This document shows, piece by piece, positions 2,498 to 20,349 of a stretch of DNA of 32,450 nucleotides. The stretch is taken from positions 1 to 32,450 of the forward strand of contig NZ_JAVBXS010000103.1 in assembly GCF_030824435.1 (NCBI RefSeq). The letters are read 5' to 3'. The notes under the pieces were generated by a model. That model ran no database searches, had not been told where the DNA came from, and was given only the letters and a program-made list of their open reading frames with translations. This stretch comes from Rheinheimera sp. (GTDB taxonomy: Bacteria > Pseudomonadota > Gammaproteobacteria > Enterobacterales > Alteromonadaceae). Both the position numbers and the translations under genes were made by a program. How positions within the stretch are numbered: the stretch's first letter is position 1; each line of letters starts with the position of its first letter.

Positions 2498-3775
2498 ATG
2501 AGTCGTGTCTTTGCCTTGGTGGACTGCAACAACTTCTATGCATCATGCGAAAAGCTGTTCCGCCCTGATTTGGCTAATCGTGCTGTGGTGGTGCTGTCGA
2601 ACAACGATGGTTGTGTAGTGGCTCGCTCAAAAGAAGCCAAGGCTATGGGCATCAAAATGGGTGTACCAGTATTTCAAATCAGGGAGCTGCTAGAGAAAAA
2701 CAATGTGGTGGCTTTTTCGTCCAACTATGCACTTTATGCCGATATGTCCGCTCGGGTGATGCGCACTTTAGAAGAAATGGCTCCGGCTGTTGAGGTGTAT
2801 AGCATTGATGAGGCTTTTCTGGATTTATCAGGGGTGGCCAGTGCAGTCAACCTAACAGAATATGGCCATCAAATTCGCCAGCGTGTTCAGCGGTGGATAG
2901 GGATTAGTGTTTGTGTGGGCATAGCTCCAACAAAGACTTTAGCAAAGCTAGCTAACCATGGAGCTAAGTCGTGGCCTAAAACGGGTGGTGTGGTAGATTT
3001 AACCAGTAAGGAGCGGCAACGCAAGCTAATGGCCTTATTGCCTGTCAATGAGGTGTGGGGTATTGGTGGGCGACTGAGCAAGCGGCTAGAGGATATGGGC
3101 ATTTATACGGTGCTGGATTTAGCCGATGCACCCACAAAGATGATACGCCAGCAATTTTCAGTCGTGGTCGAGCGTACTGTGATGGAGCTAAACGGTGAAT
3201 CTTGTATTGAGCTTGAAGACATACCACCCACGAAGAAAGAGATTGTCAGTTCAAGAGCCTTTGGCGAACGAGTAACAGAACTGGCTACAATGCACGAAGC
3301 AATATCAGAGTACGTGCATAGGGCCTGTAAAAAGCTAAGACAAGAGCGATGCCAGGCGAAACGTATCAGTGTCTTTTTAAGAACCAGCCCCTTTAGCGAT
3401 CACCAGATAGATCCATACTACTCAAACAGCCGAAGTGCAGAACTAAACTACCCATCCGACGATACCCGCGATTTTTTGCATGTAGCCAGTAAGCTACTGG
3501 ATGGTATTTGGAAGGACGGTTTTCGGTATGCCAAGGCTGGAGTCATGCTTTCAGACTTCTATGCCCATGGCGTATGCCAGCAAGACTTATTCGCTACCAG
3601 CGACACTGTGCGGGGTAACTCCGTATTAATGGGGCTGATGGACCAAATCAATGAGCAAATGCCAAACTCTCTGTACTTCGCAAGCAAAGGCTCCAAGCAG
3701 TCCTGGGGAATGAAACGTGAGCTACTATCGCCTGCATTTACTACCCGTTGGAGTGCTTTACCAAAGGTAAGATAA
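2498..3775 (+). CDS. umuC: UmuC-like Y-family DNA polymerase V catalytic subunit
   Basis: This is the translesion polymerase subunit, 425 residues, the normal UmuC length. N-terminal ALVDCNNFYASCEKLF holds the first catalytic Asp and the steric-gate region, and YSIDEAFLDLSG holds the paired Asp-Glu of the Y-family active site. VGIAPTKTLAKLANHGAK and VWGIGGRLSKRL (helix-hairpin-helix) follow, then the little-finger domain. The C-terminal DUF4113-type tail, which includes SWGMKRELLSPAFTTRW, is present, so the gene is complete. The ATG follows the umuD stop by one base, showing tight coupling and shared LexA control. Damage induction should give error-prone bypass, and the neighbouring SRAP and helicase genes fit the same theme. 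No frameshift or missing catalytic residue is seen. Confidence 0.96.
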   Translation: MSRVFALVDCNNFYASCEKLFRPDLANRAVVVLSNNDGCVVARSKEAKAMGIKMGVPVFQIRELLEKNNVVAFSSNYALYADMSARVMRTLEEMAPAVEVYSIDEAFLDLSGVASAVNLTEYGHQIRQRVQRWIGISVCVGIAPTKTLAKLANHGAKSWPKTGGVVDLTSKERQRKLMALLPVNEVWGIGGRLSKRLEDMGIYTVLDLADAPTKMIRQQFSVVVERTVMELNGESCIELEDIPPTKKEIVSSRAFGERVTELATMHEAISEYVHRACKKLRQERCQAKRISVFLRTSPFSDHQIDPYYSNSRSAELNYPSDDTRDFLHVASKLLDGIWKDGFRYAKAGVMLSDFYAHGVCQQDLFATSDTVRGNSVLMGLMDQINEQMPNSLYFASKGSKQSWGMKRELLSPAFTTRWSALPKVR

Positions 3776-8136: not shown

Positions 8137-9387
8137 CTAAACAAATTTCCGCTCATCAAAGTTTTTCGCAAGCCACCCATAATCCCTGATATTGCGCTCT
8201 TTAGCCTTTTTGCTAACTTCGCGTCGTTTCAATGAGTCTGGCTCTTTTTGCTCATAGGCAACACCGCTAAACTCTTGCCGGAACATTGACGGCAACAGGT
8301 GACTGTAGTTGCGGTCAATCATCTCAATGCTGGTGCCACATTGCTTGGCTAATGCCGCGATGTCGCCTTTGTTTTTAAGGTTCCACGTGATGTAGGAGTG
8401 GCGTAATGAGTACAGCGTTCGTTCGCCATACGAGTCATTTTTCAGTTTCAGTTCTTTGAGTATGTCTGAGAATTTTCGACTCAAGCTTTTTGGTTCAGAT
8501 CCGTCAGCTAGCCTGAAAACATAGTCTTCGGCTTGCCTGTTAGGGAAGCGAGCAACAAGGTCTGCTAAATTGGCAACAAAGTCACTTCGTACAACAACTT
8601 GTCTGGTTCCGGTATAAAGTGTTGTCTTTCCCTTAGTAACAGCAACAGTGATTTCTGGTACTCCATCCACCAACTTAAAACTGATATCCTTCCACCGCAC
8701 ATTTTCCACTTCTGTACCTGGGCGCATACCTGTGGCTACCACAAAGTCGATATAGTCATATAGGAGTTCAAGTAGCATTCGGCTGGTTTTGTTCTTGGTG
8801 TTCGCCATATCATCCAAGATGTAGTGGGAAATTTTTTTATATTCTTCAAAACTAAAAGATGAGCGGCGTTCTTGCCGTTTGCCTTGGGTATCAAACTCTG
8901 GAATATCGTACTTGGTGATTTGGCCTTGTCGCAAAGCTTTATCGTAAACTTTACTTAGTACTGCATTGTGATTTTGAATCGATGACTTAGATAGCTCTTT
9001 GCCAAACTTTGTTGTACGCCAAGCTGAAAAACTATCCATATCAGCTTGGGTGATTTTACTGATACGTTTATCAGCAAAATATGCGAGGTGATAGTTTTTC
9101 AGGATGCCAATGTATATTTGGTTGTTTTTAACCGATTTGCCAATTGCTATATCAGCTTCGAGGTCTTTGATCACTAAATTGGCGATTTCGGAAAACTTTT
9201 GCCCACCGTCTTTTCGGCTAAAGTACTCGGCCAATGCTTTCTTTTTTGCGGCTTCTAAGTCTGATTCGCCAGTGGAGAAGGTGATATGCTCTTTGCCAGC
9301 CTTAAATCGGGCATACCACCTCGAGGAGTTTTTCTGGGTGAAAATGTAGAGGCCGTCAATAATGACTATTTTCTGCAGATCGCCCAC
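8137..9387 (-). CDS. Tyrosine recombinase/integrase, second of a tandem pair
   Basis: Site-specific recombinase of the phage/island type, about 416 residues. It has an N-terminal arm-binding part (1-70), a SAM-like core-binding domain (about 75-160) and a catalytic domain. Counting from the upstream TTG, Arg223 is in ATGMRPGTE, Lys254 in TKGKTTLYTG, Arg330 in LYSLRHSYITW and nucleophile Tyr362 in RNYSH. As in its partner, the first catalytic His is Tyr and the second lies in a CGTS motif, a variation common in this subfamily. AAGGAG sits six bases before GTG 9387 and only three before TTG 9390, so GTG is preferred. It starts about 13 bases after the stop of the upstream integrase, so the two are one operon. 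The gene is complete. Confidence 0.92.
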   Translation of the reverse strand: MGDLQKIVIIDGLYIFTQKNSSRWYARFKAGKEHITFSTGESDLEAAKKKALAEYFSRKDGGQKFSEIANLVIKDLEADIAIGKSVKNNQIYIGILKNYHLAYFADKRISKITQADMDSFSAWRTTKFGKELSKSSIQNHNAVLSKVYDKALRQGQITKYDIPEFDTQGKRQERRSSFSFEEYKKISHYILDDMANTKNKTSRMLLELLYDYIDFVVATGMRPGTEVENVRWKDISFKLVDGVPEITVAVTKGKTTLYTGTRQVVVRSDFVANLADLVARFPNRQAEDYVFRLADGSEPKSLSRKFSDILKELKLKNDSYGERTLYSLRHSYITWNLKNKGDIAALAKQCGTSIEMIDRNYSHLLPSMFRQEFSGVAYEQKEPDSLKRREVSKKAKERNIRDYGWLAKNFDERKFV

Positions 9388-9400
9388 CAACTACTCCTTA

Positions 9401-10678
9401 TTAAATGAATCCTCGCAGCTTGTAGTTTTGTGCCCAGCGATCAACCTGATGGTGCAACAGCTCGTCATACTCCACCTCTGAAAACTGTTTATTCACCAGC
9501 TTCTTGGTTTCGAGCGCCACACCTGAGAGTTCACGGCCAAACATTCTGGGAATGACATGGCTGTAATGCTGCTCAATCATCTGGATACCCGTACCACATT
9601 GACGGGCTATCACATCTATACTGACATTCTGAGCCATTAGCTCCCAAGTAATATAGCTGTGACGTAATGAATATAAACTTCTTTCCCCCTGTTGGGAATT
9701 CTTTAGTTGAGTTAATTCAAGGGCTTTATCGAAATGGCGCGGCATTTCTTTTACTGAAGATCCGTCTGCTAGCCTGAATAAACGATCATCCTTATGCCTG
9801 TTAGGAAAGCGGTGGCTTAGGCGTTGTAGCACCTTTACTATGGCCTCTTTGCAGACGATCTCTCGCGTACCAGTGTACTTGGTGGTTTTACCCTTACGCA
9901 CTGTCACATAGAAACGGCAGCGCTCTGCATCCCGTTCTATGTGCATGTCTGCCCATGTAAGGTTATCCATTTCAGAACCTGGCCTCATGCCAGTGAGGAT
10001 AGCGAAGTCCATATAGTCCAGCAGAAGTTCCCGTATTTGCTGGGATTTTCCCTTGCGGCCTTCATGCATCATTTCTTCGACCTTTTCTCTGACCTTGATG
10101 TATTCATCAATGTTAAAGGCTGCTCTTCGCTGACCACCAGCGCCATTGTTCTCCAGTGTTGGCACTTGGCTAACCAGCATCCATTTCTTTTTCACGGCAT
10201 AGTCAAACACCATTTGCAGCGCTGAGTTATGGTTTTGAATTGTGGATTTAGCAGGGATACGGCCAAGCTGCGCAACACGCCACTGGTCAAACGCAGTAAG
10301 TTGGTCGTCATCAATTCTTGTGACATGGGTATTGGCAAAAAATGGGATATGGTATTTGCGAAGGGCACCAATATAATCGTCGTAGATCACTTTGCCAGTG
10401 CCAGCCAACAAAGCTTGCTGCATTTGCTGAATCACTCTGTCCGCAACGTATGAGAACCTTTTGGTTTCTACCACGAAGTTATTGGTCTCGTAGCGAATCT
10501 CGTACTCGATATAAATACGATGGGCCTTGGCTATAGCCTCCTTTAGGTCACGGGTTTTGGTGGTGCGGGAAAAGTGGTTTTTATTGATATTGAGGCGGGC
10601 GATCCAGTTGTAACAATTACTTTGTTTATATATCTGCAAAGTTGGTGTAAGCTGATGTTTCTCAAGGACTTTTGACAT
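9401..10678 (-). CDS. Tyrosine recombinase/integrase next to the tRNA-Leu att site
   Basis: 425 residues, paralogous to the next gene over its whole length. Catalytic residues are Arg232 (ILTGMRPGSE), Lys in RKGKTTKYTG, Arg339 (LYSLRHSYITW) and Tyr372 (EQHYSH). The first box-II His is Tyr336 and the later His position reads CGTG. GGAG seven bases before the ATG at 10678 supports the start. The gene reads away from the tRNA-Leu fragment that begins about 110 bases upstream, which is the standard layout for an island integrase and its own att site, so this is the likelier enzyme for insertion. It is not an integron integrase: I see no sign of the extra IntI helix, though alignment would decide. 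Its promoter must lie in 10679-10790. Confidence 0.93.
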   Translation of the reverse strand: MSKVLEKHQLTPTLQIYKQSNCYNWIARLNINKNHFSRTTKTRDLKEAIAKAHRIYIEYEIRYETNNFVVETKRFSYVADRVIQQMQQALLAGTGKVIYDDYIGALRKYHIPFFANTHVTRIDDDQLTAFDQWRVAQLGRIPAKSTIQNHNSALQMVFDYAVKKKWMLVSQVPTLENNGAGGQRRAAFNIDEYIKVREKVEEMMHEGRKGKSQQIRELLLDYMDFAILTGMRPGSEMDNLTWADMHIERDAERCRFYVTVRKGKTTKYTGTREIVCKEAIVKVLQRLSHRFPNRHKDDRLFRLADGSSVKEMPRHFDKALELTQLKNSQQGERSLYSLRHSYITWELMAQNVSIDVIARQCGTGIQMIEQHYSHVIPRMFGRELSGVALETKKLVNKQFSEVEYDELLHHQVDRWAQNYKLRGFI

Positions 10679-14312: not shown

Positions 14313-15296
14313 TTGATATCCGCCCGAACCTTCCATATTCTGGTTGTAGATGACGTTATCCTGATGTGCGATTTTTTATATAAAGTCATCAGCACCATTA
14401 AAAATTGTAAAGTGCATAAAGCAACGGATGGACGCACTGCGATAGACATTCTCGCCAGTGAAACCATTGATATGCTGATCACAGATATCGAAATGAAAGC
14501 GCCAAATGGTCTGGAACTGCTAAAAAGATTACGTTGTGGCGCGCTGAATAATCCACATGACATTCCGGTGTTGATGTTTTCAGGCAATACCTACAAAGAT
14601 ATGGTGCTGGAGAGTCTGAGTTACGACGTCAACGACTTCTTAGCCAAACCTTTATCTGCTGACGGTTTAAAGAAGAAGGTACTGTTTCATTTACAAAATG
14701 AAAAACAAATCCGCGATCCGGATTACTATAAAAATATTGTGTATGTGCCTGAAAAGAAAGAAGCCAAAACAGCAGAAGCCACCCCTTCGGCGGAAAACTA
14801 CAAAAGCCATGTCGCCATCATACGGACCGTACCTGCACCCGAAGCAAAAGCGCCTTTGCAGTTGCATGAAGACAACAGCGAAGCAGAACCGCAGGTGTTG
14901 GTGATGTGGCCGGAAAATTCAACAACGGGCTTTCATCAGTTGGACCGTCGTATGCTGATCCTGGCACAACGTATTAATTCTTTTTACAACCTGTCATTAA
15001 AACAAAGCAAACCTATTGCCCTGGCGGCAGAATTAAAACGCATTTGTGACGCCATTGATTATTTGTTATTTGTCGGCAAAAAAATCCAAAACACCAGTTA
15101 TAACCAAGGCGTGTTCTGGTCATTTTTTAATGACAGAGTGGGTAAGCTCAGCGATTTGGGGCAAGATCTTGCAAAAATAAACCCCAGATATCAGACGCAG
15201 GTACACCCCCATTTAAAACGATTGTCTAACTGGTGGGTACAAACCATCAACAGGCCTTTTGTGCGCTCAGTTGATGAGTCAGACCATAATGATTAA
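14313..15296 (+). CDS. Response regulator with REC domain and unrecognised C-terminal domain
   Basis: A two-component receiver protein of 327 residues from TTG 14313, which has AGGAG seven bases upstream. The ATG at 14268 lacks a ribosome-binding site. REC domain at about 8-125: acid pair Asp13/Asp14 (VVDD), phospho-acceptor Asp58 (LITDIEM), Ser90 (LMFSG) and Lys112 (FLAKPL), all intact. A Lys/Glu-rich linker (about 140-200) joins it to a helical C-terminal domain of about 120 residues containing FHQLDRRMLILAQRINSF and LKRICDAIDYLLFVGKKIQN. I do not recognise that domain. No DNA-binding helix-turn-helix or GGDEF is visible, so output is probably by protein contact. The stop overlaps the start of the Hpt gene, so it heads the phosphorelay operon. 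Confidence 0.85.
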   Translation: MISARTFHILVVDDVILMCDFLYKVISTIKNCKVHKATDGRTAIDILASETIDMLITDIEMKAPNGLELLKRLRCGALNNPHDIPVLMFSGNTYKDMVLESLSYDVNDFLAKPLSADGLKKKVLFHLQNEKQIRDPDYYKNIVYVPEKKEAKTAEATPSAENYKSHVAIIRTVPAPEAKAPLQLHEDNSEAEPQVLVMWPENSTTGFHQLDRRMLILAQRINSFYNLSLKQSKPIALAAELKRICDAIDYLLFVGKKIQNTSYNQGVFWSFFNDRVGKLSDLGQDLAKINPRYQTQVHPHLKRLSNWWVQTINRPFVRSVDESDHND

Positions 15297-15693
15297 ACCC
15301 AGAACTTTGTCCCCTGTATCCAAACTGCCACTGCTGACTATTGAAGCTGTCACCATGATTTATGGTGAATCAGACCCACAACTCATTCTGGAAACGCTAC
15401 AGCAGTTTAAAGCCGAAGCGCTGGGTTATGTATCGCAGGTGGAATCCTTATGGGGATCAGGTGCAACCGAAGATGTCACCCGTCACTTTCACAGCCTGAA
15501 AACCATGGCAGCTATGGTGGGAGCGGAAAAAATGTCGAGGGTTTGCAAAGTGCTTGAACACCAGCTCAGAGCCAAAGATATGCTCGAAGCAAGACGCACC
15601 TATACCCTGTTTGAAAAAATCTGGTTAGATACGCTAAAAGAACTGGACCAGCATCTTTTGGCGCCTGAAGGCAGTTCAGCTCATGCAAAATGA
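15289..15693 (+). CDS. Hpt-domain phosphotransfer protein
   Basis: A small histidine phosphotransfer protein of about 134 residues. The Hpt motif reads RHFHSLKTMAAMVGAEKM. His68 is the phosphorylated residue and Lys71 the conserved partner (H-x-x-K), followed by the small residues and Gly-Ala of Hpt helix packing. The rest is a four-helix bundle pattern. ATG 15289 overlaps the stop of the upstream regulator by 8 bases. ATG 15274 is an alternative that would add five residues. Its own stop overlaps the next receiver gene by 11 bases, so translation is coupled across three genes. By position it should pass phosphate between the histidine kinase at 16143 and one or both receivers. That direction is inferred, not shown. 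Confidence 0.88.
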   Translation: MIKPRTLSPVSKLPLLTIEAVTMIYGESDPQLILETLQQFKAEALGYVSQVESLWGSGATEDVTRHFHSLKTMAAMVGAEKMSRVCKVLEHQLRAKDMLEARRTYTLFEKIWLDTLKELDQHLLAPEGSSAHAK

Positions 15694-16081
15694 CGACAAA
15701 CCCCTGTTGTTGTTTATCGACGACGAAATATTTTTGTTGAATGCATACCGGCGTATGTTCCGGCAGTCACAATGGCGTTGTTTATTCTGCACCACCACAG
15801 TTGAAGCTGCCCAGTTATTGGATTTATATCCGGTACAGCTGATACTTTGCGACTATTATTTAACTGAAGGTACAGGTGAAGAGTTTTACCTTGGGCTTGC
15901 TGATAAGTTCAGACATGTAAAACGAATTTTATTAAGTGGCAGCAACGAGGTGCTGACTGAGCAGCTCATCAGCTCAGGCGTGGTAGATAAAGTGCTCCAT
16001 AAACCTTGCACCAAAGCTGAGCTGATAAGCCTCATCGACAGCTGTTTAGGCTCAGTCCATCGTTGCTCAGAATATGAATAG
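15683..16081 (+). CDS. Stand-alone receiver (REC) protein
   Basis: A 132-residue single-domain response regulator with no output domain. Acid pair Asp13/Asp14 (FIDDE), phospho-acceptor Asp57 (LILCDYYL), Ser85 (LLSGS) and Lys107 (LHKPC) are all present. It resembles the receiver class found in RpfG-type proteins (the LxKPW-like segment reads LHKPCTKAEL). The ATG lies within the end of the Hpt gene, with an 11-base overlap. Single receivers next to Hpt genes usually act as phosphate shuttles or sinks, and either is possible here. A 61-base gap separates it from the kinase gene. Confidence 0.9.
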   Translation: MQNDDKPLLLFIDDEIFLLNAYRRMFRQSQWRCLFCTTTVEAAQLLDLYPVQLILCDYYLTEGTGEEFYLGLADKFRHVKRILLSGSNEVLTEQLISSGVVDKVLHKPCTKAELISLIDSCLGSVHRCSEYE

Positions 16082-16142: not shown

Positions 16143-17243
16143 ATGAACATAATGGATTTTGCCCTGAGCACAGTGTTACAGCAAATCTATCCGGCTCTGC
16201 TGGTGGTGGACCAAAGCGGCATCATACGTTTTGTTTCACCGCAGTTTTCTGAATCTTATCAGGGACAGCGGGTAACTGAGCTACTGCCTCAGCTACAGCT
16301 GCCATTACAGAATAACAACGGCAGCCAGCGGCAGGGTCCGGTACAGCTGCAACAACAAGGTGCATTTTATTATCAGATCTTTTCGATATCGCAGCAGGAC
16401 TTCAGCGGCTTTTGTCTGGTATTTCAACGGGATAATGAACAACAAAGCCTGCAGAAAAAAAACGATCATATGCAACAATTGTTGTACCACTCGGAAAAAA
16501 TGGCTGTGATAGGCCAGTTAACGACCAGTATCACGCATGAAATCAACAACCCGGTTGGTTATGTTTATTCCAATATGCAGACTTTGTCTGACTACGCCAG
16601 CGACTTAATTAAAACCATTGAAGCCTTGTCCGAAGCTGGCGATAAAGAACAGGCAGCGGCCATTAAAGCTGAGTTTGATTTTGATTATATCAGTGCGGAT
16701 ATTCACTCTTTGCTCAAAGAGTCGGGCTTTGGTCTGGAGCAGGTATTGTCACAGATAGCCGCACTTAAAGATCTGTCACACAGCGATGAACTGCATTTTC
16801 AACTTGCCGATATTCAGACCGGCATTCGCTCCAGTATCAGGATTGTGCATAACGACCTGAAGTATAAAGTCACCATTCATCAAGAACTTGCCCCGCTGCC
16901 GCTGATTGAATGTATTCCGTCACAGTTATATCAAGTGGTGCTGAATTTGTTGGTGAATGCCGGTCAGGCCATCACCGAACAGGGCGACATTTATATCCGT
17001 ACCGGCACCGAAGCGGACAGGATCTGGATTGAAGTACAAGACACTGGTTCTGGTATAACAGCACAACATTTAGACAAAATATTTGAACCTTTTTTTACCA
17101 CCAAAGCTGTTGGCAAAGGCACAGGTCTTGGGCTGGCACTATGTAAAAACATCATCGACCGTCATCATGGTGTGATTGAAGTCCGCTCAGAACCGGGCGT
17201 CGGCAGCAGTTTTAAAATATGGTTGCCGATCAAACAGCCTTAA
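16143..17243 (+). CDS. Soluble PAS histidine kinase
   Basis: Sensor kinase of 366 residues without membrane segments, so it senses in the cytoplasm. A short PAS-like domain (about 8-95: PALLVVDQSGIIRFVSPQF) is followed by a coiled linker, then a dimerisation/phosphoacceptor segment MAVIGQLTTSITHEINNPVG with phospho-His132. An extended helical stretch (150-215) precedes the ATPase domain with N-box LNLLVNAGQAI (Asn273), G1-box VQDTGSG (Asp300), F-box FEPFFTT and G2-box GKGTGLGLALCKNI. The H-E-I-N-N-P form places it with the ZraS/NtrB-like HisKA-4 type kinases. AGGTG before ATG 16143 is the ribosome-binding site. It lacks its own receiver, consistent with separate REC and Hpt proteins upstream. 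The stop lies four bases from the stop of the convergent GGDEF-EAL gene. Confidence 0.93.
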   Translation: MNIMDFALSTVLQQIYPALLVVDQSGIIRFVSPQFSESYQGQRVTELLPQLQLPLQNNNGSQRQGPVQLQQQGAFYYQIFSISQQDFSGFCLVFQRDNEQQSLQKKNDHMQQLLYHSEKMAVIGQLTTSITHEINNPVGYVYSNMQTLSDYASDLIKTIEALSEAGDKEQAAAIKAEFDFDYISADIHSLLKESGFGLEQVLSQIAALKDLSHSDELHFQLADIQTGIRSSIRIVHNDLKYKVTIHQELAPLPLIECIPSQLYQVVLNLLVNAGQAITEQGDIYIRTGTEADRIWIEVQDTGSGITAQHLDKIFEPFFTTKAVGKGTGLGLALCKNIIDRHHGVIEVRSEPGVGSSFKIWLPIKQP

Positions 17244-17247
17244 CCGG

Positions 17248-20200
17248 CTAATGCTGCGTTTTGTCAGGCGAAAGCAGCTGCAATTTCATCCGTTGATTTT
17301 CTAATTGCAGCTCCCTTAATCTAAATGCTTCAGCTACCTGCACTTTTAACTCTGCCGGTTCCCAGGGTTTGGTAATAAAACGGTAAATAACACATTCGTT
17401 CACCGCTTTGAGAATACCGCTGATTTCGGTGGTCGCACTGAGCACCATACGGATAACATCCGGATACATAGCCCGAACCTTTTGCAAAAAATCTATGCCT
17501 GTCATGTCGTTTAACCTAAGGTCGGTCAGCACAACATCTACATTAAATTTGGCAAGATAATCAATAGCTTGCTCAGCAGATTCTGCCAACAACAGCTGAT
17601 AACTCTGCTGGCGCAGTTCGCGTTTTAACGCACTTAATACGTTCATTTCACTATCAACTAATAACAGGCAGCGGCTGCCATTGGCATAAAGTTCAGCCGG
17701 TAACTGCAGTTGTTGTTTATGTTTTAGCTGCTGTGCACAGTTGTCGGCCGGCAAAGGTACAGAATAAAAGTATCCTTGGATTTCGTCACAACCCGCTTTC
17801 AGTAGAAAGCCCAGCTGCTCAACTTTTTCCACCCCTTCGGCAATCACCCGGATGCCGAGATTGTGCGCCATTGAAATCATCGACCGGACCAGAGCGGCAC
17901 TTTCCGGATCTGTATGCACATCAGTGGTAAAACTACCGTCAATTTTCAGCTGACTAAAAGGAAAACGTTTTAAATAAGCCAAAGACGAATAACCGGTACC
18001 AAAATCATCAATGGAAAACTGAATACCCAAAGCTTTGAGTTCCTGCATTTTTACCAACGACTCATCGGCATCATGCATCAAGGTACTTTCTGTCATTTCA
18101 ATAATGATTGAACTTGGGCTTATCTGGAATTGTTGCAACGCAGCGCGCACCCTGGCCACAAACTGGGCATCCATAAAACTCAGCGCCGAAAAGTTTACGG
18201 CAACCACTACATCCTGCAGCTCCTGCCGCCACTGGGCTATTTGCCCACATACTGTTGAAAACACATAAAAGTCTAATTCGGTAATTAATCCTGATTGTTC
18301 GGCTATGTAAATAAAAGCGCCGGGGGCAATCATCTGGCGGTTATGTGACCAACGCACCAGAGCTTCCAGACCACAAAGCCGGCCAGTATTTAAATCAGCC
18401 TGTGGCTGGTAATAAACTAAAAACTCTTTATTTAATAAACCCTGACGTATGGCTTGTTCCATTTGCAATCGTTGTTGCACTATCTGGTTCATTTCCGGCT
18501 TAAACATACAAATACGATTACGCCCCAGCTGCTTTGCTTCATACATCGCAGTGTCGGCATTACGCAATAAAGTCACACAAGAATCACCATCCAGCGGATA
18601 ACGGCAAACACCAATACTAAAATTCACCACCACTTCCTGCTGCGCAATAGTGACAGGATGTAATAATTGACGTTTTAACTTCTCCAGCCGCCTGACATGG
18701 GTGGCCAAACCAATAGGATCCGTCAGCAAAATGACAAACTCGTCGCCCCCCAGACGGGCGACAGTGTCGGTGTCGCGCATCCTCGCCACCAGACGTTCGG
18801 CAATTTGTAGCAGCAGTTCATCACCGGCTTCATGGCCCAGACTGTCGTTAATCACTTTAAAGTGGTCAATATCCAGAAAAGCCAGGGTAAACTGCCGGTG
18901 ATTCCGTTTTGCATGGGCAATAGCTTGCTGCAACCTGTCATTCAGCAGATTGCGGTTTGGTAAACCGGTTAAACTGTCGTAGTTGGCCTGATACTCCAGC
19001 TCCTGCCGGTAATTTTTATTTTCAGTGATATCACGCAAAATGCCGACAAAATGCGTGGTTTCCCCGCGATCATCCAACACAGGAGCCAGAGTCAGTTCAT
19101 TCCAGAAGGACGAACCGTCTTTGCGGTAATTCAGCAGTTCTGCTTTGACTTTTTCCTGATGTTGAATTGCCCGGCGCAGCCCATCTAAGCCCGGTTGATT
19201 ACGGGCGGAACCTTGCAAAAAACGGCAATTTTTCCCAATAACTTCAGTAGCTTTATAACCCGTCATTTGTTCAAAAGCAGGGTTTACATAAATAATGGGC
19301 TGATCAGGAGCGTTATTGTCGGTAATGATCACAGCATTCACACTGGCTTCAATCGCCTGAGTGCGGATACGCATCTGAATATCCTGTTTTCGTTGTTCAG
19401 TCATGTCTTGCATAACTGCGATAACACCCTGAATTTTCTGTTTTTTATCCAAAAAAGGCACAGCTGAGCAGAGTAAAGTCCTTACACCGTACTGCTCTGT
19501 TTGCACATCAAGAAACAGGTTACGACATAAATTCTGCTGATTTAATGTCTGATATAACAACCAGTTACCGGGTGACAATAATTGACCATCCGGGCCATGT
19601 TGCTGTCGGAGCCTCCCCTGCTCCTGACATTCAAGCACAACACCACCGGACAGCCGGTTATATTCCTGATTGCTGATCACAAGGTTGCCATCCTGATCCG
19701 CCACCAAAACTGCAACAGGCAAATTATCCAATACGTGCCGCAACATAGCACTACTGTCAGGCACAACCTTGTTTTCATCCGGCAACGGTTCTGATAAGGG
19801 GGCAGATGACGTCAGTGACGGCTGGTTGCTGATTTGCTGAGAAAGCCATCCGGCCTGAACATAAGTTGACATCAGCAAATTCAGTAACTGCTGCTGGCTG
19901 GCGTTTATCATATCCAGCTCTGCATCCAGCCCAGGCGTAACACTGGTTTTAGTGCTCTGATGCAGAGGTGCAGGCTTATGATGCAAAAAGTGGCGGATGC
20001 GGGAGAATAGATAGGTTTGGTCAAAAGGCTTCACAATCAGGTCGTCAGCGCCACAAGCCAGCACTTGCACCACTTCGCCGGCATCGCCTAACCTTGTCAG
20101 CAGAAACACCGGCACCTGGCTCGTCAGTGCAGATTGTTTGATCTGCCGGCACAGCTGATAACCAGTCATCACCGGCAGCACAATGTCGCTGATAATCACC

Positions 20201-20349
20201 GTTGGGAGCCGCTGTTGCAGTATCTCCAGTGCGTCCCTGCCACTATATGCCAGCCAAACTTTAGCTCCGGCAGGCTCCAATAAAGACTGTAACTCTGCCG
20301 CCTCAGTGGCACTGCCTGCAACAATAAGGACATCGGCTTGGGTTAACAT
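17248..20349 (-). CDS. REC-PAS-LOV-GGDEF-EAL-REC bifunctional c-di-GMP protein
   Basis: 1033 residues, soluble. N-terminal REC (about 5-120) keeps Asp55 and Lys107 but lacks the usual acid pair (IVAGSATE), so it may not be phosphorylated normally. PAS at about 203-318. LOV-type PAS at about 325-445, with GKNCRFLQG (Cys375), LLNYRKDG (Asn407) and FWN (Asn417). The position of the usual signalling Gln is Leu438 (FVGILRDIT). The GGDEF domain (about 455-615) has an intact GGDEF motif (534-538) and inhibitory site RDTD (525-528). The EAL domain (about 625-870) has EALVRW (662), EMTES, DDFGTG (781-786) and IAEGVEK, so it looks active. C-terminal REC (about 893-1010) has Asp899, Asp943 and Lys994 (FITKPW), RpfG-like. 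Expected to make and/or cleave c-di-GMP in response to light, redox and phosphorylation. GGAGG precedes the ATG. Confidence 0.95.
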   Translation of the reverse strand: MLTQADVLIVAGSATEAAELQSLLEPAGAKVWLAYSGRDALEILQQRLPTVIISDIVLPVMTGYQLCRQIKQSALTSQVPVFLLTRLGDAGEVVQVLACGADDLIVKPFDQTYLFSRIRHFLHHKPAPLHQSTKTSVTPGLDAELDMINASQQQLLNLLMSTYVQAGWLSQQISNQPSLTSSAPLSEPLPDENKVVPDSSAMLRHVLDNLPVAVLVADQDGNLVISNQEYNRLSGGVVLECQEQGRLRQQHGPDGQLLSPGNWLLYQTLNQQNLCRNLFLDVQTEQYGVRTLLCSAVPFLDKKQKIQGVIAVMQDMTEQRKQDIQMRIRTQAIEASVNAVIITDNNAPDQPIIYVNPAFEQMTGYKATEVIGKNCRFLQGSARNQPGLDGLRRAIQHQEKVKAELLNYRKDGSSFWNELTLAPVLDDRGETTHFVGILRDITENKNYRQELEYQANYDSLTGLPNRNLLNDRLQQAIAHAKRNHRQFTLAFLDIDHFKVINDSLGHEAGDELLLQIAERLVARMRDTDTVARLGGDEFVILLTDPIGLATHVRRLEKLKRQLLHPVTIAQQEVVVNFSIGVCRYPLDGDSCVTLLRNADTAMYEAKQLGRNRICMFKPEMNQIVQQRLQMEQAIRQGLLNKEFLVYYQPQADLNTGRLCGLEALVRWSHNRQMIAPGAFIYIAEQSGLITELDFYVFSTVCGQIAQWRQELQDVVVAVNFSALSFMDAQFVARVRAALQQFQISPSSIIIEMTESTLMHDADESLVKMQELKALGIQFSIDDFGTGYSSLAYLKRFPFSQLKIDGSFTTDVHTDPESAALVRSMISMAHNLGIRVIAEGVEKVEQLGFLLKAGCDEIQGYFYSVPLPADNCAQQLKHKQQLQLPAELYANGSRCLLLVDSEMNVLSALKRELRQQSYQLLLAESAEQAIDYLAKFNVDVVLTDLRLNDMTGIDFLQKVRAMYPDVIRMVLSATTEISGILKAVNECVIYRFITKPWEPAELKVQVAEAFRLRELQLENQRMKLQLLSPDKTQH

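Follow-up and report, generated by a model that had tools for sequence, protein, structure and literature searches.

The window analysed here, a 32,450-nucleotide stretch of Rheinheimera sp. DNA, encodes a receiver-flanked c-di-GMP enzyme whose LOV domain carries a Leu in place of the signalling Gln. We consider this protein to be probably a blue-light-regulated bifunctional enzyme of the Gln-less LOV class, which would once also have served as the phospho-output of a chemosensory kinase and would now be uncoupled from it. A Gln-less LOV domain by itself belongs to a known class; what is added here is the chemosensory origin and its loss.

The gene is a single reading frame of 1033 codons' worth of amino acids with no internal stop (Table 1). 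Pfam recognises two Response_reg stretches, which agrees with the initial annotation in placing receivers at both ends, and a PAS_9 match covers the LOV part (residues 339-443). The GGDEF and EAL catalytic motifs both appear intact. Specifically, the EAL residues E662, N719, E751, D781, D782, K802, E838 and Q858 are present and invariant across 18 alignment rows; the motif residues of both domains are the ones that serve catalysis in such enzymes. Because both catalytic domains look intact, the direction of a light effect cannot be predicted. In an NCBIfam scan of the protein, the GGDEF domain model alone reached the cut-off among the best 25 of 130 families, and the full-length AlphaFold model (pTM 0.47) gave no usable domain arrangement.

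Table 1. Features of the LOV gene and of its convergent neighbours, in window positions.
Feature	Positions	Strand	Basis
REC-PAS-LOV(Leu)-GGDEF-EAL-REC protein, 1033 aa	17248..20349	-	ORF + Pfam
N-terminal receiver, residues 7-118	19996..20331	-	Pfam + family alignment
PAS domain, ~residues 204-323 (alignment-derived limits)	19381..19740	-	PAS + PAS_4, two stretches
LOV domain, residues 326-445	19015..19374	-	Pfam + structure-based alignment
Cys375 codon, predicted flavin-adduct cysteine	19225..19227	-	
Leu438 codon, conserved-Gln site	19036..19038	-	
LOV-GGDEF linker, 21 residues, D440 to L460	18970..19032	-	
GGDEF domain, residues 455-612; GGDEF motif and RxxD site present	18514..18987	-	Pfam + alignment
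EAL domain, residues 632-865	17755..18456	-	Pfam + alignment
C-terminal receiver, ~residues 893-1015	17305..17673	-	Second Response_reg stretch (Pfam) + alignment
Histidine kinase gene, convergent neighbour	16143..17243	+	Pfam; also beside the gene in L015 and L016
Single-domain receiver gene	15683..16081	+	Pfam
Hpt phosphotransfer gene	15259..15693	+	Pfam
Receiver + C-terminal part without Pfam match, 342 aa	14268..15296	+	Pfam

Alignment and structure comparison indicate that the LOV fold and pocket are intact. All nine consensus residues are present (G372, N374, C375, R376, F377, L378, Q379, N407 and N417), among them the fold motif GxNCRFLQ and the two Asn, and L438 occupies the alignment column in which known LOV domains have the flavin-flipping Gln. 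The initial annotation had described a LOV consensus match with NCRFLQ, had named C375, N407, N417 and L438, and had read Leu438 as replacing the signalling Gln; the translation and the alignment bear out each of these statements. It had also raised the possibility of a Gln at a shifted position, which is ruled out by five PDB alignments that are gap-free within ten residues of the site. The protein passes the filter used in PMC9098866 for Gln-deficient LOV domains (at least eight of nine consensus residues, no Gln), and, on these alignments, its missing active-site Gln in strand I-beta puts it in the Gln-deficient subclass (LOV deltaQ).

To place this domain among its relatives, LOV-like sequences were gathered from named genomes (the best 80 of 269 relatives, so that close relatives dominate), 40 relatives, 147 family genomes and 394 order genomes; a few matches from the last two scans had no locus and stand outside the counts. 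At least 130 distinct sequences were obtained. The Cys is absent in 19 of the 130, which were dropped before Gln was tallied; the 111 Cys-bearing sequences divide into 76 with Gln and 35 without. Nine distinct Cys-less LOV-like domains from related genomes (L117, L120, L122, L124, L126, L127, L141, L143 and L144) have Glu at the Gln site, with Pro at the Cys position in eight and Ala in one.

Orthologues of the window protein occupy 21 loci: the window, Rheinheimera sp. 4Y26, Rheinheimera sp. A13L, R. riviphila, 16 Pseudomonas-type loci (L021-L036) and a gammaproteobacterial MAG (L040). Every one keeps the adduct Cys, and none has Gln at the Gln site, which is Leu in 20 and Phe in one. The Phe belongs to L040 (2440-7059, plus strand), which has the same type of chemosensory operon as the other relatives described below; according to PMC9098866, large aromatic residues are largely absent at this site. 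A 77-row tree, built by a quick method after masking the Gln site, unites the 19 family rows in one group (SH-aLRT 99); 34 of the 111 Cys-bearing sequences, the truncated family member L021 among them, were omitted because of length or because no GGDEF was recognised. (The family alignment, A3, does not include L021, L025 and L026.) Since the family forms a single group and 20 of its 21 loci have Leu, the sequence evidence indicates that the Leu is an old trait of the orthologous family and not a local accident. The initial interpretation of a LOV c-di-GMP enzyme with Leu thus stands but was incomplete, as the Leu belongs to an orthologous family and is hence old. Elsewhere among the LOV-like sequences the tree indicates that Gln was exchanged several times, with eight changes needed on the best tree and at least six if starred branches alone are trusted.

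Two other explanations of the Leu or its setting were rejected. A sequencing or assembly error is unlikely, because the same Leu recurs across the orthologous loci. Ala339 (codon 19333-19335, LOV column 14) was considered as a compensation for Leu438, but Ala occurs in only two of 15 other Gln-less rows and looks like a family trait; all 20 distinct family sequences have Ala, and the 76 Gln-bearing sequences have Gly in 62 cases and Ala in six.

The linker between LOV and GGDEF is 21 residues long in 19 of the 20 family rows inspected, a set that leaves out L021 and in which L040 is off-pattern. Short-linker LadC proteins have the same linker length and are activated by light on the order of 15-fold (PMC10396304). 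Against light regulation of the window protein, the same paper describes two earlier LOV-GGDEF constructs with 21-residue linkers, cut from LOV-GGDEF-EAL proteins, that showed no light-regulated synthesis. One of these is without the GGDEF-motif residues (PMC10396304); missing parts may explain the failure of the other.

The genomic context of the relatives suggests a second input. In 18 of the 21 loci (R. riviphila, the 16 Pseudomonas-type loci and the MAG), the LOV gene is preceded on its own strand by homologues of CheA and CheB. An MCP was found in 16 of the 18, and in the other two, L022 and L040, the contig begins just before CheA. Four CheA proteins scanned with Pfam have the layout Hpt-HATPase-CheW-REC, and two CheB proteins scanned are REC-methylesterase. 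For four loci the retrieved DNA reaches farther upstream, and all four have CheR with TPR and CheW there: Pfam identifies them in R. riviphila, P. tumuqii and Stutzerimonas (the TPR match of the Stutzerimonas CheR is weak), and they are present in Pseudomonas sp. PIC25 too, where the CheW match comes from NCBIfam. The relatives' frames were taken stop to stop, so start positions are unsettled; in L025, L026 and L040 the N-receiver motif lies 36-45 bases downstream of the CheB frame. The protein encoded next is REC-GAF-PAS-LOV-GGDEF-EAL and, except in R. riviphila and in the truncated L021, ends in a C-terminal receiver; Pfam detects the GAF domain in L020, the one relative's LOV protein scanned. 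In the Wsp system, of chemosensory type ACF, the kinase WspE activates WspR by phosphorylating its receiver (PMC8846402). The relatives' operon appears to resemble Wsp, with the LOV enzyme in the WspR position, the ACF likeness being one of gene layout. Operon linkage alone does not prove phosphotransfer from CheA.

The window, 4Y26 and A13L have no che operon beside the LOV gene and no matching CheA in their genomes, where the best matches to the CheA kinase core have 30-33% identity (30-32% for the window). Across 22 Rheinheimera genomes, a CheA gene at E <= 1e-100 is found in two, R. riviphila and G013; the LOV gene is patchy in the genus, occurring in four, the window's among them. A13L retains remnants of CheW and CheB immediately upstream of its LOV gene (L016:8623-9040), the scar left by deletion of its che operon; che remnants were sought beside the gene in the window and in 4Y26, and none were found. 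The G013 genome keeps the CheW-to-CheB genes, and its LOV gene is cut inside the N-receiver, with the ED kept and the break before the Lys; no LOV match in this genome goes below 2e-12. The cut gene faces a truncated copy of the window's 342-residue receiver gene (L152:9340-10194). From the A13L remnants and the G013 arrangement we infer an ancestral locus in the order che operon, LOV gene, convergent kinase/receiver/Hpt/receiver operon. Placing the three operon-less loci in one clade gives an AU p of 0.084, and in the best tree R. riviphila falls among them; the three cases perhaps represent one or two independent losses.

In the window, 4Y26 and A13L the LOV gene has the convergent kinase/receiver/Hpt operon for a neighbour. 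The 342-residue receiver gene of this operon is full-length in three of the 22 Rheinheimera genomes, the window's included, and a fourth has the truncated copy. A scan for promoters and terminators gave two promoter-like sites against 5.2 in shuffles and four terminator-like sites against 4.0. Elsewhere in the window, a phage-integrase-family gene (8137-9390, minus strand) adjoins a 425-residue ORF without Pfam match (9401-10678, minus strand), a possible mobile element, and a UmuC-like translesion polymerase gene (IMS family) lies at 2498-3775 on the plus strand.

Loss of the kinase operon is associated with damage to the N-terminal receiver. That this receiver lacks its acid pair was already recognised in the initial annotation and is confirmed, with A11-G12 in its place; the association with operon loss lay outside what that annotation could see. 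The pair is ED in all 18 operon loci and damaged in all three operon-less loci (VD in A13L, TD in 4Y26, AG in the window). The window receiver keeps D55, T85 and K107 and is without the acid pair expected of a phosphorylatable response regulator. End branches were fitted per domain on one tree that contains 15 operon rows. The ratio of the N-receiver end branch to that of LOV-EAL is 0.0-1.4 in these 15 rows, and 1.8 in A13L, 7.7 in the window and 16.8 in 4Y26. In the window protein the N-receiver has diverged faster than the rest, with an end branch of 0.40 compared with 0.03-0.10 for LOV, GGDEF, EAL and C-receiver. The simplest reading is that the N-receiver may have come under relaxed selection after kinase loss while LOV is still constrained. 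These data are support for relaxed selection and not proof, because there may have been only one or two losses, the A13L ratio is raised only slightly, and the 4Y26 N-receiver branch (2.6) is very long and poorly determined.

Other parts of the protein have changed as well. Within alignment stretch 125-205 the window protein has 81 residues and 4Y26 has 60, against 234 in L040 and 241-243 elsewhere in the family; the GAF-type stretch that precedes PAS in the relatives is absent from the window protein, and 4Y26 is without both GAF and PAS. The C-terminal receiver of the window protein has the acid pair D899-S900 (DS, not DD), together with D943, S971 and K994. DS is found in all three Rheinheimera proteins that have a C-receiver, and the phospho-Asp is missing in five of 19 family C-receivers (L025, L026, L031, L033 and L036).

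These observations suggest a mechanism. If the domain binds flavin as predicted, blue light would produce the C375-FMN adduct. Given the Leu at the Gln site, changes in water and in the backbone would relay the protonation of N5, as in the model of Dietler et al. The relayed change would alter the 21-residue coiled-coil linker, and this coupling would shift GGDEF and/or EAL output. In the ancestral state, the enzyme would have been the output of a Wsp-like chemosensory system, with CheA phosphorylating the N-terminal receiver, and chemosensory input and light would have converged on one enzyme. In the window lineage, with the che operon gone, the acid pair lost and the GAF stretch deleted, there would remain the LOV domain and a partly degenerate C-terminal receiver beside the histidine kinase/receiver/Hpt/receiver operon.

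The LOV domain could instead be a flavin redox or oxygen sensor without a light switch, Leu having been fixed as light signalling was unneeded. This would fit the lack of Gln in all 21 loci, and the Cys-less LOV-like PAS of P. aeruginosa RmcA has been proposed, in the account given in PMC8846402, to sense redox state in addition to light. However, the Cys is present in every orthologue and missing in 19 of 130 LOV-like sequences, so the family Cys is not retained by default, and Cys-bearing Gln-less LOVs do signal light (PMC9098866); we consider a pure redox or oxygen sensor unlikely. Alternatively, light could be irrelevant, and the main input could now come through the C-terminal receiver, with the convergent kinase/receiver/Hpt operon phosphorylating it. 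LOV gene and convergent operon occur together in the window, in 4Y26 and in A13L, R. riviphila is without both C-receiver and operon, and the C-receiver is well conserved in the first three (76-83% identity). Against this stand the DS acid pair, the Pseudomonas orthologues, which have a C-receiver and no recognisable convergent operon within the retrieved DNA, and the invariant LOV Cys, which would be left unexplained; a switch to this input therefore seems rather improbable.

General decay, in which the window lineage would be shedding receivers, GAF and Gln and eventually the enzyme itself, seems more improbable again. The lost N-receiver acid pair, the halved C-receiver pair, the deleted GAF stretch, the patchy occurrence in the genus and the loss of the LOV core in G013 could be read in this way, but the short end branches outside the N-receiver, the intact catalytic residues and a Leu common to lineages with an intact N-receiver all argue against decay.

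The preferred reading, a light-regulated enzyme released from its kinase, has wider implications. The Gln-less LOV is here a lasting condition of an entire family, not an occasional loss. Matched natural proteins could separate light from phosphorylation input: those with an intact N-receiver and CheA (Pseudomonas, R. riviphila), those with a damaged N-receiver and no CheA (the window, 4Y26), and A13L as an intermediate. We put at about even the chance that Pseudomonas and Rheinheimera have a chemosensory pathway with a Gln-less blue-light c-di-GMP output enzyme that integrates CheA phosphorylation and light in one molecule, the window lineage being a natural uncoupling (kinase input lost, light input kept) and G013 the reciprocal loss (che kept, LOV core lost). 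If the pathway works in this way, light is added to the inputs of Wsp-like c-di-GMP control. Our literature search brought up no evident publication on LOV with GGDEF in Rheinheimera; judged by titles and abstract starts, no combination of LOV, receiver, GGDEF and EAL was evident in Pseudomonas (in a search mostly outside subscription papers), nor of a Wsp or ACF system with LOV.

WspR has the layout REC-GGDEF. The relatives' operon is like Wsp in having CheW, CheR with TPR, MCP, CheA with CheW and REC, and CheB, followed by a receiver-bearing c-di-GMP enzyme. It differs in its output protein (REC-GAF-PAS-LOV-GGDEF-EAL-REC) and gene order, and the window genome is without the operon. The P. 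tumuqii MCP carries a 4HB_MCP_1 domain, as given for WspA (PMC8846402). SL2 of Synechococcus elongatus, a LOV-GGDEF-EAL blue-light phosphodiesterase, is like the window protein in its domain core; the passages on it in PMC8846402 describe a canonical LOV and mention no receivers, whereas the window protein is Gln-less and has them. LadC proteins (MsLadC, 8c05) were chosen for having just one LOV and one GGDEF, without EAL or receivers (PMC10396304). Dietler et al. (2022) list about 350 natural Gln-less LOVs, mostly with Leu or Ile at the site (PMC9098866). The initial annotation proposed the window protein as a natural case to compare; Gln-less LOVs are indeed known to signal, but a precedent has been published, a Mesorhizobium loti LOV-GGDEF fragment with Met140 for Gln that is a blue-light-repressed cyclase and behaves similarly as M140Q (PMC9098866, section 9). 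The M. loti LOV-GGDEF-EAL protein (WP_140774521.1), like the window protein, has the Cys and the other consensus residues and no Gln, ahead of GGDEF-EAL; it has Met at the Gln site where the window protein has Leu. Compared with the Gln-deficient LOV receptors of Dietler et al., the window protein adds receivers at both ends and a probable ancestry in a chemosensory operon.
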